From Desulfurobacterium atlanticum (GTDB lineage: Bacteria > Aquificota > Aquificia > Desulfurobacteriales > Desulfurobacteriaceae), in contig NZ_FZOB01000005.1 of assembly GCF_900188395.1 (NCBI RefSeq), positions 72,121 through 136,120 of the forward strand: 64,000 bases of DNA, given 5' to 3'. The notes under the pieces are model-generated. The model did no database searches. It saw nothing but the letters and a program-made list of their open reading frames with translations, and was not told where the DNA came from. The position numbers and the translations under genes were made by a program. Every line of letters starts with the position of its first letter. Position 1 is the first letter of the stretch. Below are positions 16,663 to 39,549 of the stretch, one piece after another.

Positions 16663-17700
16663 TTATTTAACGTGTATTTTTCCTTTTCCCTCTTTTACTA
16701 CACCAACTTCTGAAAATTCTATTTGGTTATTTTTAAGTTCTCTTTCAAATTTTTCTGCGTGTTCTGGAGGAACAGAAATTAAAAGTCCCCCTGACGTTTG
16801 CGGGTCAAACAGAAGAAGTTTTAGCTCTTCTGAAATATGAGATGCGAAAGATACGTTGTCCCCCACATACTCAATATTTTCATACGTTGCTGCCGGCAGA
16901 AGCCCCATTTGAGCAAACTCAAAAGATTGAGGGAGAAAAGAGAAATTTTCACTAAAAATCTCCATATCAACATGGGAAAATTTTGCCATTTCAAAAGTGT
17001 GCCCTAAAAAGCCAAAACCTGTTATATCGGTGCAGGCGTTTGCACCGATTTTAGTCATAATTTCTGAAGCTTTTTTGTTTAGTGTTGACATTACTTTTGT
17101 CGCTTTTTCAACGGTTGTATCTTTAGCCATGTCAGCTTTTATTGCTGTTGTTATTACTCCTATACCAAGGGGTTTTGTGTAGTAAAGAATATCTCCCGGT
17201 CTGGCAGTTGAGTTTCTGATTATTTTTTCCGGGTGTGCTATTCCCGTTACAGATAGTCCATATTTTGTTTCAAGATCGTCAACGGTGTGTCCACCAATAA
17301 GGGATACTTCAGCTTCTTTTAGTTTATCAGCTCCACCCTGTAATATTTTGGGAAGAAGATTTTCTGGCACTTTACAGGAGGCAAACATTAGAAGGTTTAT
17401 TGCGGTAATCGGCGTTCCTCCCATTGCGTATATATCTGATAGGGCGTTGGCAACGGCAATCTGCCCAAACATATAAGGGTCATCAACAACCGGAGTGATA
17501 AAATCGGCCGTTTGAATAAGAGCAATTCTGTCTGTCAATTTATAAACTCCGGCGTCTTCTGCCGTTTCAATACCTACAATAACGTCTTTATCCCTATAAA
17601 TGCTCAGGTTGCTGAGCAGTTTCTCAAGCCCGACCGGGCTAAGCTTTGCTCCTCAGCCTGAAGCTCTTACAGTAGTTGTGAGCTTAAATTTTTCTTTCAT
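16663..17700 (-). CDS. selD: Selenophosphate synthetase, selenocysteine-containing
   Basis: The protein is 345 aa only if the in-frame TGA at 17653-17655 (codon 16) is read as selenocysteine. The reading frame from ATG 17700 is otherwise open. The N-terminus reads ASG-Sec-GAKLSP and aligns with the E. coli SelD active site GAGCGCKISP: Sec16 takes the place of Cys17, and K19 matches the essential Lys20. A SECIS-like hairpin follows the TGA. Downstream motifs include TADFITPVVDDPYMFGQIAVANALSDIYAMGG (ATP and metal binding) and DITGFGFLGH. SelD makes selenophosphate from selenide and ATP. The start overlaps the NERD gene by 4 nt. An automated call would begin at TTG 17538 and lose the active site. 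Confidence 0.93.
17627..17655 (-). promoter_or_regulatory. SECIS-like element with selenocysteine UGA codon of selD
   Basis: The UGA is at 17653-17655. Twelve nt downstream is a perfect 5-bp hairpin, 17627-17640: minus strand AGCCC-GGTC-GGGCT. The apical loop GGUC holds the GU expected of bacterial SECIS elements at the expected distance. A second perfect hairpin (6-bp stem GCTCAG/CTGAGC, loop CAAC) follows at 17602-17617. Confidence 0.85.
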
Positions 17701-18590
17701 ACCTGACTTTTTCCTTTTCTTATGATTTGTTGGCATTTATAACAATAAGCTTTTCCACCAAAAATTTTCTTCCTATCCCAGCAGTAGAGAGCTTCCTTTT
17801 CAGAAATAGTTGCTTTACATTTTGCACAAAAATATTGACGTGGGGGTTTATAATCTGTGATTTTTTCTTTTATATTAAAATATTTATACCAGTTTACCTC
17901 GCTTTTCCTATGAAAACGAAGAAGTTTTCTTGCGAAGGTTTTTACAGTTTCTTCTGAGGAAAGTTTTACAATGTCCAGAATGATTCCTAAGTTTTCAGCA
18001 TTTTTCTGTGTAATATTGTATATCTGATCTGCTTTAATTATAGAACTTGTATCAAATTTATCTTTTTGAGGTCTTTTAATGATTGTATTTGGATGAACAA
18101 GCACGTAAGAGAAATATCTTGGTTTGATTCTTATTCCGAAACTTACAGGAAGCAACTTTTCATTTTCTATTATCTCTTTTAAGAGAGCCTGATGGCGTAA
18201 ATTCTGTTCTATAGGAGAAGGTATTCCAAATCTGCTTTTTTTATAGTGAATGATAAATTCACCTGTTTCTGTAATTTCTATTTTTTGTCCCATATTTTTT
18301 GTTTCAAGGATGTAAATGTGGAAAAGTCGGTTTATTAACAGATGGTCTATTTGAGCCACTCGCCCCTTGTATTCAAGTCTAAGGTCATGTAGGACAAACC
18401 AGTTTTTGGAATCTTTGAAGTAGAAGTTTATGAAGTAAGCAGCGTCTTTTTCTCCTTTTATTCCTTTTCTTATTCTGTAAAGCTCTCTTTCTATGAGAAA
18501 AATCTGTCGTTTTGTTAGGTCTTCCCTTTTCAAGAGTTTTTCCAGTTCTTCTATTTCTTTTTTTCTATAAGTGGCTTCTTTTATAATCAT
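17697..18590 (-). CDS. NERD-domain protein with C-terminal zinc finger
   Basis: The protein is 297 aa. Residues about 45-170 form a nuclease-related (NERD) domain: GEKDAAYFIN, then QIDHLLIN with the catalytic-type aspartate and ILETKN with the glutamate and lysine. The C-terminus has a four-cysteine cluster (CAKCKA, then CYKCQQ) that probably binds zinc. NERD proteins are thought to act on DNA or RNA, but the role of this one is unknown. It lies 6 nt after rlmH and overlaps selD by 4 nt. Confidence 0.75.
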   Translation of the reverse strand: MIIKEATYRKKEIEELEKLLKREDLTKRQIFLIERELYRIRKGIKGEKDAAYFINFYFKDSKNWFVLHDLRLEYKGRVAQIDHLLINRLFHIYILETKNMGQKIEITETGEFIIHYKKSRFGIPSPIEQNLRHQALLKEIIENEKLLPVSFGIRIKPRYFSYVLVHPNTIIKRPQKDKFDTSSIIKADQIYNITQKNAENLGIILDIVKLSSEETVKTFARKLLRFHRKSEVNWYKYFNIKEKITDYKPPRQYFCAKCKATISEKEALYCWDRKKIFGGKAYCYKCQQIIRKGKSQV

Positions 18591-21801: not shown

Positions 21802-22356
21802 TTATACACACGGAGGAATTTCTATAAGTCCCAAGTTGCCGTCTTTACGTTTATAAAGCACTGCTGCTTTTTTTGTTTTTGCGTTACAGAAAACAACAAA
21901 TTCTCTATTTGAACTTAAAAGCTTAACGGCAGCATCTTCAACGGTAATAGGTTTATAGAGCTCGGGCTCTACTTCTACAATTCTAATAGGTTTTTCAGTT
22001 GTTTCCTCTTCTATGAGAGAAAACTCTTTTATACCTTCTCTGTTGTGTCTTTTATTTTGAACTTTATCTTTCAATCTTCTTAACTGTTTTTCTGCTGCGT
22101 CAACTACTTCGTCTATGGATGTGTAAAGGTCATCTGTTTCTTTCTTTATCCTGATTGTATGGTCAAAAATGTTATAGATTACTATTTCTACAGAAGCTCT
22201 GTATTTTTCTTTAGATACGATTACATCTGCAAAAACTTCTTCTTTTGCACTTCCAAGATACTTTTCAAGTTTCCCGAATTTCTCGTTGATTATGGATTTT
22301 AGAGCATCTGTCAGGTCAAGGTCTTTTCCGATAATATTAAGCTTTAAGGTAGCCAT
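21802..22356 (-). CDS. hpf: Ribosome hibernation promoting factor, long form
   Basis: The 184-aa protein has an N-terminal ribosome-binding domain (about residues 1-100, with FADVIVSKEKYRASVEIVIY) and a C-terminal dimerisation domain (about 125-180, KPITVEDAAVKLLSSNREFVVFCN). The long form forms 100S ribosome dimers in most bacteria. It reads toward the thi riboswitch on the same strand, so any read-through would also be controlled there. GGAGG precedes the start. Confidence 0.92.
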   Translation of the reverse strand: MATLKLNIIGKDLDLTDALKSIINEKFGKLEKYLGSAKEEVFADVIVSKEKYRASVEIVIYNIFDHTIRIKKETDDLYTSIDEVVDAAEKQLRRLKDKVQNKRHNREGIKEFSLIEEETTEKPIRIVEVEPELYKPITVEDAAVKLLSSNREFVVFCNAKTKKAAVLYKRKDGNLGLIEIPPCV

Positions 22357-22426
22357 ACCCCATCCTCCTTTTTCTGGTCTTATATTTAAAGTATTACTAA
22401 ATAAATGGTTTGGGAAGAGAGGATTT

Positions 22427-23395
22427 ATGAAAAAAGCTTATTTGCTGTTTTCTGGAGGTCTCGATAGCATTATTGCAGCTAAACTTTTAAGGAATGCTGG
22501 ATTTTCTGTCATAGGAGTTCATTTTAAAACACCGTTTTTTGGTAAAAGCGAAAAGGAGTTGAAAAAAGTTGCTGAAACTCTTAATATAGACCTTGAAATT
22601 ATTGATATTACCGAAGAATTTTTCCCTGTTCTAAAGAACCCTCCTCACGGATACGGTAAGAATGTAAATCCTTGTATTGATTGTAAAGTACTTATGCTGA
22701 GAAAACTTAAAGAGATTGCTGGTGATGGGATTATCGCTACAGGAGAGGTTTTAGGCCAGAGACCTATGTCTCAAAGAGGCGATTCCTTAAAAAGAATAGA
22801 ACGGATTGCAGGTCTTAAAGGAAGAGTTTTCAGACCCCTTTCAGCCAGGTTGCTTCCAGAGACAGTTTATGAAAAGGAAGGAATTATTAAAAGAGAGTAT
22901 TTTCTTGATATTAAAGGTCGTTCAAGAAAACGTTATCCTGAGATAATAGAAAAGATAGGACTTAATATGGAGAATCTTCCAACGCCTGCAGGGGGGTGCC
23001 TTTTAACTGAACCTTCATTTGCTGGAAAGGTAAAAGATTTGATTACACATGACCAGCTAACTGTAAAAGATGCAGAGCTTTTAAAGATAGGAAGACATTT
23101 TCGTATAGGTAAAGGAAAGCTTGTTGTTGGAAGAAATAGGGAAGAGAACCCTAGATTAAAAGAGATATTTGAGGATGGAGAGATTTTATTATATACTGAA
23201 AGTGTACCAGGACCTACAGGTTTACTCAGGTGGGATAGTTCCGATTCAACTGTTGAGCAAGCTGCGATGATTGTTGCAAGATATTCTGACGGAAAGGACA
23301 GTGATAAAGTTTCTGTAATTGTTAAACAGAATGGGAAAGAGAAAAAGATGGAGGTTTCTCCAGGAATAGATGTTGCACCTTTCAGGGTAAATTGA
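22427..23395 (+). CDS. PP-loop ATPase (ThiI/MnmA-like tRNA sulfurtransferase family)
   Basis: The protein is 322 aa, starting at ATG 22427 with AGAGAGGA 4 nt upstream. The PP-loop is SGGLDS (residues about 9-14), and NPCIDCK carries a paired cysteine motif. The C-terminal third (ending VSPGIDVAPFRVN) resembles the small RNA-binding domain found with NFACT-type proteins. It probably adenylates a nucleobase in tRNA for thiolation, but the exact tRNA position is not known. It is divergent from hpf. Confidence 0.7.
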   Translation: MKKAYLLFSGGLDSIIAAKLLRNAGFSVIGVHFKTPFFGKSEKELKKVAETLNIDLEIIDITEEFFPVLKNPPHGYGKNVNPCIDCKVLMLRKLKEIAGDGIIATGEVLGQRPMSQRGDSLKRIERIAGLKGRVFRPLSARLLPETVYEKEGIIKREYFLDIKGRSRKRYPEIIEKIGLNMENLPTPAGGCLLTEPSFAGKVKDLITHDQLTVKDAELLKIGRHFRIGKGKLVVGRNREENPRLKEIFEDGEILLYTESVPGPTGLLRWDSSDSTVEQAAMIVARYSDGKDSDKVSVIVKQNGKEKKMEVSPGIDVAPFRVN

Positions 23396-34656: not shown

Positions 34657-37387
34657 TTACAAGCCTTCCCTTTACATAAATAAACTTTTTAATCTCCTTA
34701 CCTTCTGTGTACTTTTTAATTTTTTCAAGGCTCAGGACAACTTCCTTAAGTTTCTCCTCATCAATATCTGCCGGGACAGTTACTTTTTCTCTTACCTTTC
34801 CGTTTATCTGGACAGGAAGTTCTATTTCTTCTTTTATAAGGGCTTCTTCGTCAACTTTCGGCCATCTGTGTGTTGAAACCAGAGTTTTATGTCCGGTTAT
34901 TTTCCACATCTCTTCTGCGATGTGCGGAGTAACAGGAGAAAGCATAATTATCATCAACTCAATGGCTTCTTTTAGAGCGGCTTTATCTCCGCCCGTTTCA
35001 GGTTTAAACCTTGAAATCAGATTGAAAAGCTCCATGATTGCTGCTATGGCTGTGTTGAATTTGAATCTTTCATTAAATTCCTCTGTTACCTTTTTAAGGG
35101 TTTCGTGAGTTTTTCTTCTGAGTTCTTTTCCCGCTTTTGATAGAGTTGAAGGTGGTGTATCTTCTCTGAAGATTGAAGCGTTTTCCTCAACAAAGTTGAA
35201 AACCCGTTTTAAAAATCTGAAAGCACCTTCAATATCTTCCATTTTCCATTCAAATTCTGTTTCTGGTGGAGCGGCAAATAGAATGTAAAGTCTTGTTGCA
35301 TCGGCGCCATAGCGGTTTATCATATCTTCAGGACTTACGGTGTTTAGTTTAGATTTGCTCATCTTTGATAATTCACCGTGAGTTTTTACAAGTTCTTCAA
35401 GTTTCTCCTTCCAGTTTTCTATCTGCTTTGCTATCTCTTCATTTGAGATTACAAGCAGGAAGTTATCACCGTTTCCTATTCTGTTTTCAGAGAGAAACTC
35501 TTTTACCGTTTTACCTTTGTTTTCGCTTTTGCCACCAAGGGCGTTTATGAGTTTTGAAATATCATCTTCCTCTTTTATGCCTAAAACGGAAAGTGCTGTT
35601 TTAACTTTTATCCACCTTTTACAAACCATTCCCTGAGTTAGAAGGTTTTCAAAAGGTTCTCCTGCCTTGAAGAATTTATACTGTTTATGGGTTTCATCAG
35701 CTTTAAAAAGCCCAAGGTCTCTTAAAACCTTTGTAAAGAATCTTGAGTATAGAAGATGTAGAACGGCGTGTTCTATTCCGCCTATATACTGGTCAACAAC
35801 CATCCAATAGGAAGCTTCTTCAGGTTTAAACGGAAGAGTTTCACATTCAGGTGAGCAGTATCTTAAGAAATACCATGATGAATCAAAAAATGTATCCATT
35901 GTATCAGTTTCTCTTCTGGCAGAGTTTCCGCACTTTGGACATGTTGTGTTAACAAATTCTTCAACCTTTTCAAGAGGATTTCCCTCTCCTGTAAATTGAA
36001 CGTTTTCAGGAAGTTTTACAGGAAGCTCGGTTTCAGGTACAGGAACTATTCCGCACTTTTCACAGTAGATTACGGGAATGGGTGTCCCCCAGTATCTCTG
36101 TCTTGAGATGTTCCAGTCTCTTAATCTATACTGGATAGCTTTCTCACCTAACCCTTTCTTTTCAAGCTCTTCTGTGATTGCAATTTTTGCATCGGTGCTT
36201 TTCATTCCTGTGAACTTTTCAGAATTAACAACTACTCCGGGTTTTTCATAGGCTTCTTCAAGTTTTTCTGCATCTATGTTTTCGTTTTCAGGAGTAATAA
36301 CGATTTTTATCGGAAGGTTGTATTTTTTTGCAAACTCAAAATCTCTCTGGTCATGGGCAGGGACAGACATTACAGCTCCTGTTCCGTAATCCATAAGAAC
36401 AAAGTTTGCGATATAAACAGGTATCTTTTCATTTGTTAATGGATGGATAACGTAAGAGCCTGTGAAAACTCCTTCTTTCTCAAGCTCTCCCGTTGTTCTT
36501 TTTCTTTTTTCGGTTTTTCTCATTTTTTCAACAAATACTTTTACTTTTCCTCTCTGTTCCTCTTTCGTAAGCTTTTCTACAAGCGGGTGTTCTGGGGCAA
36601 GGACAAGATAGGTTACACCAAAAAGGGTATCCGGTCTTGTGGTAAAAACCTCAATATGTTCTACATCTTCTATCTTTTCCTCAAGGGGAAATTTTACTTT
36701 TGCTCCAATACTTTTACCTATCCAGTTTTTCTGCATCTCTATAACAGGGTCTGGCCAGTGTCCTTTAAGAAGTTCAAGATCCTGTAGCAGTTCTTCTGCA
36801 TAGTCGGTAATTTTGAGATACCAGCTGTCTATCTCTTTCTGTTCAACTGTTGTTCCGCATCTCCAGCATCCACCGTCGTCTTCAACCTGCTCATTTGCTA
36901 AAACAGTTTGGCATGTGGGACACCAGTTTACGGTGGTTTTTGCCCTGTATGCAATGCCTTTTTCAAGCATTTTTGTAAATATCCATTGGTTCCACCTGTA
37001 ATATTCTGGAAGGCAGGTTGCCACTTCCCTGTCCCAATCGTAAGAGAATCCAAGTCTTTTTAGCTGGTTTTTCATGTATTTTATGTTGCTTAAAGTCCAT
37101 TTTTTCGGGTGGATTCCCCGGTTTATTGCTGCATTTTCGGCGGGAAGGCCAAAAGCGTCCCATCCCATCGGATGGATTACGTTGTAACCAAACATCCTTT
37201 TAAAACGTGCCACTACATCACCGATGGAGTAGTTCCTCACATGGCCCATGTGAATCTTTCCAGAAGGGTAGGGAAACATTTCAAGAACGTAATATTTCTC
37301 TTTGTTTTCATCTATATCAGCTTTAAAGAGTTTCTCTTTTTCCCAGATTTCTTGCCATCTATTTTCTATTTCTTTGAACTTATACAT
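34640..37387 (-). CDS. leuS: Leucyl-tRNA synthetase
   Basis: The 915-aa class I synthetase has HMGH (in [19 protein letters not shown]), a CP1 editing domain (about 220-420), zinc-type cysteine pairs (CPTC, CWRC, then CEKC and CPKC), [10 protein letters not shown], and a C-terminal anticodon domain. It is a single uninterrupted chain, unlike the split LeuRS of Aquifex aeolicus. It is the first gene of a six-gene minus-strand operon, with GGAG upstream. Confidence 0.97.
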
Positions 37388-37467
37388 TTGGGTCCTCCGT
37401 GTAACTGAAAGTATTTATGCAGAAAAAATAATAGCACACAGGAGAAAACTTATAATTTAAAATCGGT

Positions 37468-37473
37468 TATAAT
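37468..37473 (+). promoter_or_regulatory. Possible -10 element upstream of flhF
   Basis: A perfect TATAAT lies about 44 nt before the flhF start. A second TATAAT is at 37451-37456. No good -35 is visible at 16-18 nt, and there is no sigma-54 or sigma-28 consensus. Confidence 0.3.
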
Positions 37474-37516
37474 ACAACTTGTATCTGAAATCGTTTTTCA
37501 AGGAGATAAGGGAGGA

Positions 37517-38689
37517 ATGTCTGTTAAAATTCTTGAAGGAGATAATCTTGAAGCACTTATAGAGAGAGCCAAAGCCATATACGGTGGCGATATAGAGATT
37601 CTTTACTATCAGGTTGAGACAAAATCGGGTTTGTTGCCTTTTACAAAAAAGAAGTTTTACAGGTTGTTTTTTAAAGAGAAGGATAAAAATAGTGGAGAAA
37701 CAGAAGCTCTTAAAGAGGAGCTTGACAGTTTAAAAAGCTTGATTAATGAGCTTAAGAAGGAGATAAAAACAGCTCCTGTAAATCACCAACCAGAAGAAGT
37801 ATATGTGCCTCCTCTACCGGAAGCCCCGTCCCATATATCTCAATCACTTTCCTCTTCTTTATCTCCCGCAAGTGGTGCTGTTTATCAGGATTTTACAGGG
37901 GATGCTATTGAGTTGTTAAAACTTCTTGAGTCAAAAGGGGTTTTCCCCGAAGTTGCCAGAGAGATTGTGGAGCCTGCATGCGGCCTTGACCTTGAAACCA
38001 ATAAACTTGATTTGAGTACGCCTACTTTTAGAGAGGCCCTGGAGAAAGGGATTTCTGTAAAGGTAAGATTTACAGGTAGGATTAAGGTTGATAATCCTCC
38101 AAAAATAATAGCGTTTGTCGGCCCCACAGGTGTTGGAAAAACGACAAATCTTTTTAAAATAGCATCTGACCTTGTTATAAACCAGCAGCTTAAGGTTGGG
38201 GTTATAAGTATTGATACTTTTAAGGTTGGTGCTATTCAGCAGGCAAGAATGTATGCAAATATTTTGAACATTCCATTTTTTACTGTGTCTGAAGGGAAAA
38301 GGCTGAGAGAGACCATCAGTAATCTTTCTGAAATGGATGTTATTTTGATAGATACAGTTGGAAGAAGTCATTATGATTACTGGCGTTTAGGAGAGATAAA
38401 GGCGATACTTTATAGCTCTGACAGGGGAATGGATGTGCATCTTGTTATCAGTTGTAATTATAGCAATGATGAAGCGATAGAAGTTGTTAACAGGTATAGA
38501 GCTATTTTTCCTGTAACCTCTTTGCTTTTAACAAAAGTAGATGAAACGAGGAAACCTGGGATTTTACTTAATCTGCCTGTTAAAACAGAGCTTTCGCTAT
38601 CCTATTTAAGTGTAGGACAGAGAGTTCCTGAAGATATAAAACTTTTAACACCTAAGAAAGTGGCAGATTATATTCTGGGAGATCTATGA
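37517..38689 (+). CDS. flhF: Flagellar biosynthesis GTPase FlhF
   Basis: The 390-aa SRP-type GTPase has an N-terminal variable domain, a linker, and a C-terminal NG domain with FVGPTGVGKTTNLFK (P-loop), DTFKVGAIQQARMYA and DTVGRS. It marks the site of polar flagellum assembly. It opens the flagellar operon, divergent from leuS, with AGGGAGGA upstream. flhA, its usual upstream neighbour, is not here. Confidence 0.93.
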   Translation: MSVKILEGDNLEALIERAKAIYGGDIEILYYQVETKSGLLPFTKKKFYRLFFKEKDKNSGETEALKEELDSLKSLINELKKEIKTAPVNHQPEEVYVPPLPEAPSHISQSLSSSLSPASGAVYQDFTGDAIELLKLLESKGVFPEVAREIVEPACGLDLETNKLDLSTPTFREALEKGISVKVRFTGRIKVDNPPKIIAFVGPTGVGKTTNLFKIASDLVINQQLKVGVISIDTFKVGAIQQARMYANILNIPFFTVSEGKRLRETISNLSEMDVILIDTVGRSHYDYWRLGEIKAILYSSDRGMDVHLVISCNYSNDEAIEVVNRYRAIFPVTSLLLTKVDETRKPGILLNLPVKTELSLSYLSVGQRVPEDIKLLTPKKVADYILGDL

Positions 38690-39549
38690 ACATACAGGCA
38701 GAAAAGCTTATAGAGCTTGTTAAGGAAAGGCATCATCAGAGTAAAAGCAGAAAGGCCAAATTTATCTGCGTTTCCAGCGGTAAAGGTGGAGTTGGAAAAA
38801 CAAATTTCTCCGTTAATTTTTCATGGCTTCTGGCTAACAGATTTGATAAGAAAGTTTTGCTTATTGATGCAGATATAGGGCTTGGTAATGTGCATGTAAT
38901 TCTTGGGGTTTCTCCTGAGAAAAATTTAAAGCTTCTTATGAAAGGAGCAGATATAAGAGATTTGATTCAAACTTACGAAAATATTGATATACTTCTTGGA
39001 TTTTCAGGTATTGATTCTTTTCAGGAACTTGAAAGTATAGATACCATTACAGTGATAAATAAACTTGAAAAGATAGCAGATATCTATGACTATGTTATTC
39101 TTGATGCTCCTGCCGGGATAAATGAGAATGTTTTGAAATTTGCCGTTTCTTCAGATGTTACCTATGTAATTACTACACCTGAACCTACAGCGATAACCGA
39201 TGCTTATGCTTTGATAAAAACTTTATATAAGCTTTATAACTATGATTGTATAAAAATTGTTGCAAATATGTGTAGAAATAAAAATGAAGGATTTTCAATT
39301 CTTGAAAGAATGAGAGCATCGTGTGAGAATTTTTTGTCTTTTAGACCAAAAGTGGCTGGAGTTTTGCCAGAATCCTTTAATTTAAAGGTTGCTGTTAGGA
39401 AAAGAGAGCCTGTTGCCATTTCAAATCCGCAGGATCAGTATGTTTTGGCTCTTATGGAAATTGCAGCAAGAGAAACAGGAGAAATTCTGAAAGAGGAAAA
39501 TAGCGGTTTTTTTGAAAAGTTGAAGAAATTTTTGGGCATTAAGAGTTAA
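38686..39549 (+). CDS. flhG: Flagellum number regulator FlhG (MinD-like ATPase)
   Basis: The 287-aa protein has the deviant Walker A SSGKGGVGKTNFSVN near residue 30 and LLIDADIGLGNVHVILG. The C-terminus ends in a short amphipathic helix (FFEKLKKFLGI) suited to membrane binding. FlhG limits flagellar number with FlhF. It overlaps flhF by 4 nt. Confidence 0.92.
   Translation: MNIQAEKLIELVKERHHQSKSRKAKFICVSSGKGGVGKTNFSVNFSWLLANRFDKKVLLIDADIGLGNVHVILGVSPEKNLKLLMKGADIRDLIQTYENIDILLGFSGIDSFQELESIDTITVINKLEKIADIYDYVILDAPAGINENVLKFAVSSDVTYVITTPEPTAITDAYALIKTLYKLYNYDCIKIVANMCRNKNEGFSILERMRASCENFLSFRPKVAGVLPESFNLKVAVRKREPVAISNPQDQYVLALMEIAARETGEILKEENSGFFEKLKKFLGIKS

Follow-up and report, generated by a model that had tools for sequence, protein, structure and literature searches.

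The stretch of Desulfurobacterium atlanticum DNA that we analysed (hereafter the window, 64 kb) carries on its minus strand a selD gene interrupted by an in-frame UGA codon, preceded by a co-directional gene with a nuclease-related domain. The features of the locus are as follows.

16663..17700, minus strand: selD (selenide water dikinase / selenophosphate synthetase), 345 aa, Sec predicted at residue 16 (TIGR00476)
17653..17655, minus strand: in-frame UGA (predicted Sec) at codon 16, at the position of Cys17 in E. coli SelD (alignment and family TGA column)
17627..17640, minus strand: bSECIS core upper hairpin, A-GCCC-GGUC-GGGC-U, 5 bp stem with GGUC tetraloop (bSECIS constraints)
17698..17700, minus strand: selD start codon ATG, which forms ATGA with the TGA stop of the preceding NERD gene (reading of the sequence)
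17697..18590, minus strand: NERD (nuclease-related) domain gene with a 4-nt overlap with selD (PF08378, E 2.7e-19)

Translated with TGA as U, the frame 17700-16663 yields 345 residues with a single TGA, at codon 16, and a TAA stop, as the first-pass annotation had described it. In the table 11 list the longest open reading frame is 17538-16663 (TTG start, 291 aa). The same annotation had held that gene callers would start at TTG 17538; this is indeed where the longest listed frame begins, while the behaviour of real callers is something that we infer from a mechanical list. Callers without UGA recoding can be expected to shorten or mis-start both selD and a peroxiredoxin (see below) in the genus Desulfurobacterium.

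The read-through protein matches TIGR00476 (selD) with 371.5 bits (cut-off 125), residues 6-314 covering profile positions 1-310 of 311, and NF002098 with 328.7 bits (cut-off 299). Its best match in PDB is the Aquifex SelD (2yye, E 2.8e-75), and E. coli SelD is also among the closest solved structures. In the alignment with the E. coli protein (3u0o), query residue 4 corresponds to chain residue 5 and there is no gap up to the site, which places residue 16 exactly on Cys17, as had been proposed. Within the motif ASG-U16-GAK19, Lys19 falls on Lys20 of E. coli SelD, giving a glycine-rich N-terminal loop with a lysine three residues past the Sec position. By these matches SelD is a full-length member of the selenophosphate synthetase family, with its predicted catalytic Sec/Lys pair in place. 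Members of the family share the N-terminus (KFKLT.TVRASG), which agrees with a start at ATG 17700. The ATGA overlap suggests translational coupling of selD to the NERD-domain gene, for which we know of no role in selenium metabolism. Elsewhere in the window, a protein that joins an MnmA/ThiI-like HUP domain to an NFACT-R_2 RNA-binding domain (22286-23395, plus strand) is a probable tRNA-modifying enzyme.

The hairpin downstream of the UGA codon

The 14 bases of the selD hairpin start 12 nt past the UGA, and its loop lies 17 nt past it. The published bSECIS model (PMC13188914) specifies a loop of 3-9 nt with a G within the first two positions, an upper stem of 4-16 bp, a distance of 16-37 nt from the UGA and a minimum free energy of at most -7.5 kcal/mol. 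The hairpin satisfies all of these constraints (4-nt loop GGUC, 5 bp, 17 nt, -17.4 kcal/mol), which answers the check for a SECIS element suggested in the first-pass annotation. An Rfam search with the hairpin gave no match, as expected for so loose an element. The pattern of UGA, 17 nt and GGTC with a stem of at least 5 bp occurs once in the window, in selD, and in none of 20 shuffled versions.

Codon usage also points to constraint on the hairpin. In the codon alignment of 21 selD genes from the family, AGC, CCG, GTC and GGG are each identical in 20/21. Together with the glycine codon preceding the UGA, they tie for the lowest codon entropy (0.28 bits, against a mean of 1.47) among the 91 columns whose amino acid is invariant and has four or more synonymous codons. 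The selD fold is stronger than that of synonymous-codon shuffles (z -3.5; relatives vary from -0.55 to -3.5), and across 107 TGA-SelD genes the mean z is -1.7, with 95% below zero. A dinucleotide-shuffle test on a wider stretch was unremarkable (z -1.04). Within SelD, compensatory change is seen in one stem pair only (18-27, CG to UA, in a sister Desulfurobacterium); the remaining double changes in the covariation test come from an unrelated peroxiredoxin hairpin, and the test was run without the rows of the sister family, whose loop is one base shorter.

Of the remaining frames in the window that a UGA interrupts, two were read and rejected, neither having the hairpin. The first (4476-3472) resolves into a response regulator and, after it, another gene that begins at a methionine of its own. 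The second (37109-38713) is an FlhF-like gene that happens to be open further upstream. Both were named from reading the sequence.

Selenocysteine machinery and a second UGA-containing gene

The first-pass annotation had made its reading depend on the presence of selA, selB and selC, and all three were found in the genome: selA (620.8 bits), selB (392.3 bits; a GTPase with beta-barrel and SECIS-binding winged-helix domains) and a tRNA-Sec (anticodon UCA, 81.8 bits). The tRNA-Sec genes of T. ammonificans and D. thermolithotrophum were reported in 2014 (PMC4227106). We also detected selU/ybbB (tRNA selenouridine synthase); this trait was reported to be missing in those Aquificae whose genomes were available in 2006 (PMC1794560).

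Across the phylum, by our own count, selA is present in 54/56 genomes with TGA-SelD and in 0/3 with Cys-SelD, and selB was not found above the cut-off in the two Cys-SelD genomes tested. The two TGA-SelD genomes without a selA match are a draft with a partial selB (G042, E 5e-105) and a complete Aquificota genome (G058) with a decayed one. Closer inspection of the latter (G058:C1, L145 6722-7305, L122) showed that selA is undetected and the UGA of selD retained, and that selB consists of two ends only, the middle (about residues 156-540 of the G051 homologue) being gone. This looks like a recent loss of Sec decoding that left selD stranded.

That genome, of the same class as D. atlanticum, illustrates that a TGA-SelD can persist past the loss of selA and selB, and the D. 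atlanticum gene could likewise be a decayed pseudogene, or be translated only from TTG 17538, giving a product that lacks the N-terminus. We consider this very improbable, given the intact selA, selB and selC of the genome and the protein-level conservation of the region between the ATG and the TTG, active-site residues included.

A search of the genome for the AhpC/TSA family (PF00578) returned five genes, one of which has an in-frame TGA:

L133 1282-1914 (G000:C9:32708-33112), minus strand: PrxU-like peroxiredoxin, UGA at the peroxidatic cysteine (NF040737 PrxU)

The read-through product is of 2-Cys type, with Sec predicted at the peroxidatic cysteine (FYPADFTFV-U-PTE), and its best profile is NF040737 PrxU (226.3 bits, below the cut-off of 270). 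A further UGA, at codon 206 of this reading, is probably an ordinary stop. The hairpin after the first UGA (GCUGC-GGUC-GCAGC) shares with that of selD an identical CGGUCG tip and 17-nt spacing, although the two genes are unrelated, and so supports the reading of selD independently from within the genome. This common apical motif offers a simple handle for finding more selenoproteins in these thermophiles.

The UGA could in principle be decoded as another amino acid, for example as Trp, or as Cys by near-cognate read-through. We found no point in favour of such decoding, and hold it to be highly unlikely in view of the cognate tRNA-Sec (UCA) with a full Sec machinery, the ordinary genes of the window that terminate with TGA, and the location of both internal UGAs at redox-active Cys sites followed by the same hairpin.

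TGA conservation and the decoding of codon 16

We searched 136 Aquificota genomes for SelD. Counting SelD genes that reach the codon-16 site, TGA is found at the same column in 21/21 Desulfurobacteriaceae genomes, within the invariant motif VRASG-U-GAKLSPVGL, and another 35 genomes, which belong to a sister family (Aquificaceae-like), also carry TGA-SelD. The nearest named relative's SelD, from a Desulfurobacterium sp. MAG, is 78% identical. SelD without a stop occurs in three Aquificota genomes (G059, G061 and G062); the two that we read have TGT (cysteine) at the site, and neither has the hairpin after it. Cys forms outnumber Sec forms among bacterial SelD proteins (about 81% in one reference set, PMC4561486), yet the reading of the TGA as a sequencing or assembly error for TGC or TGT, which the first-pass annotation had itself raised, is refuted by these independent genomes and has the conservation of the SECIS codons against it as well; because the same column is TGA in all of the family's genes, error or chance is excluded, with a residual probability that we regard as negligible.

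The gene at 17700-16663 (minus strand) is thus almost certainly a standard Sec-containing selenophosphate synthetase whose UGA codon 16 is decoded as Sec through SelB and the 3' hairpin. By what is established for the pathway, SelB with GTP and Sec-tRNA-Sec would bind the hairpin that directly follows the UGA, and the ribosome would insert Sec at codon 16. Sec16 and the nearby Lys19 would belong to the flexible N-terminal loop of the active site, where selenide is handled during ATP-dependent selenophosphate synthesis. The selenophosphate would supply SelA, for the synthesis of Sec-tRNA-Sec used by SelD itself and by the Sec-peroxiredoxin, and SelU/YbbB, for tRNA selenouridine. We infer in this way the actual insertion of Sec, catalysis by SelD and its dependence on its own product (positive feedback). 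A need for its own product in its synthesis is a known feature of Sec-SelD.

Selenium use and known Sec-SelD systems

The selenoproteome was surveyed by family searches only (TIGR01591, PF00384, PF02662, PF00374 and PF00578), and the list is not complete. In this genome, which is 99.7% complete, profile searches gave no match to the formate dehydrogenase alpha subunit (TIGR01591), to molybdopterin oxidoreductases (PF00384) or to FlpD (PF02662), and its NiFe hydrogenase genes (PF00374) have no in-frame stops. Without PF00384 and Fdh-alpha matches, the usual client of Sec decoding is missing here. In a 2006 survey (PMC1794560), organisms that decode Sec but lack FdhA had Sec-SelD in every case and the selenouridine trait in most, and the present genome, with Sec-SelD and selU, fits this pattern. 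We tentatively propose, as a possible rather than a probable history, that Sec decoding in this lineage outlived the complete loss of formate dehydrogenase and molybdopterin oxidoreductases, being kept by SelD, the Sec-peroxiredoxin and tRNA selenouridine synthesis. If true, the selenoproteome would be small and nearly self-serving.

Among the selenoproteins of bacteria, Sec-SelD ranks second in frequency. A motif scan of the 80 closest loci among the genome contigs found TGA at the same column in 79/80 (one, L035, gave no motif), and a read-through UGA was predicted in the selenide water dikinase of A. aeolicus in 2005 (PMC1242214, Table 1). Both bear out the earlier statement that Sec-SelD is known in some bacteria. 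The first-pass annotation had also presented the gene as adding a deep-branching thermophile; the placement in Desulfurobacteriaceae, Aquificota, fits, but the novelty was overstated in view of that listing of A. aeolicus. Our partial literature search found no paper naming the SelD of Desulfurobacteriaceae as a selenoprotein. As a kind, Sec-SelD is already known in many bacteria, and Desulfurobacteriaceae, which join the lineages that have it, are a new family-level instance, otherwise ordinary.

The closest solved system is the SelD of Aquifex aeolicus (PDB 2yye, 2zod and 2zau), which comes from the same phylum and is the same enzyme with the same TGA/Sec site. SelD genes from the sister family that includes Aquifex aeolicus share about 37-45% identity with the D. 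atlanticum gene, and the loop of their hairpin is 3 nt long (GGTCC-GGC or GGG-GGACC), in contrast to the GGUC tetraloop of D. atlanticum. Sec-SelD proteins of Clostridia, Deltaproteobacteria, Bacillales and Dehalococcoidia have TGA at the same column, at the 45-54% identity found for SelD outside Desulfurobacteriaceae. E. coli SelD (3u0o) is the same enzyme with the same active-site position, where Cys17 takes the place of Sec and no SECIS is needed.
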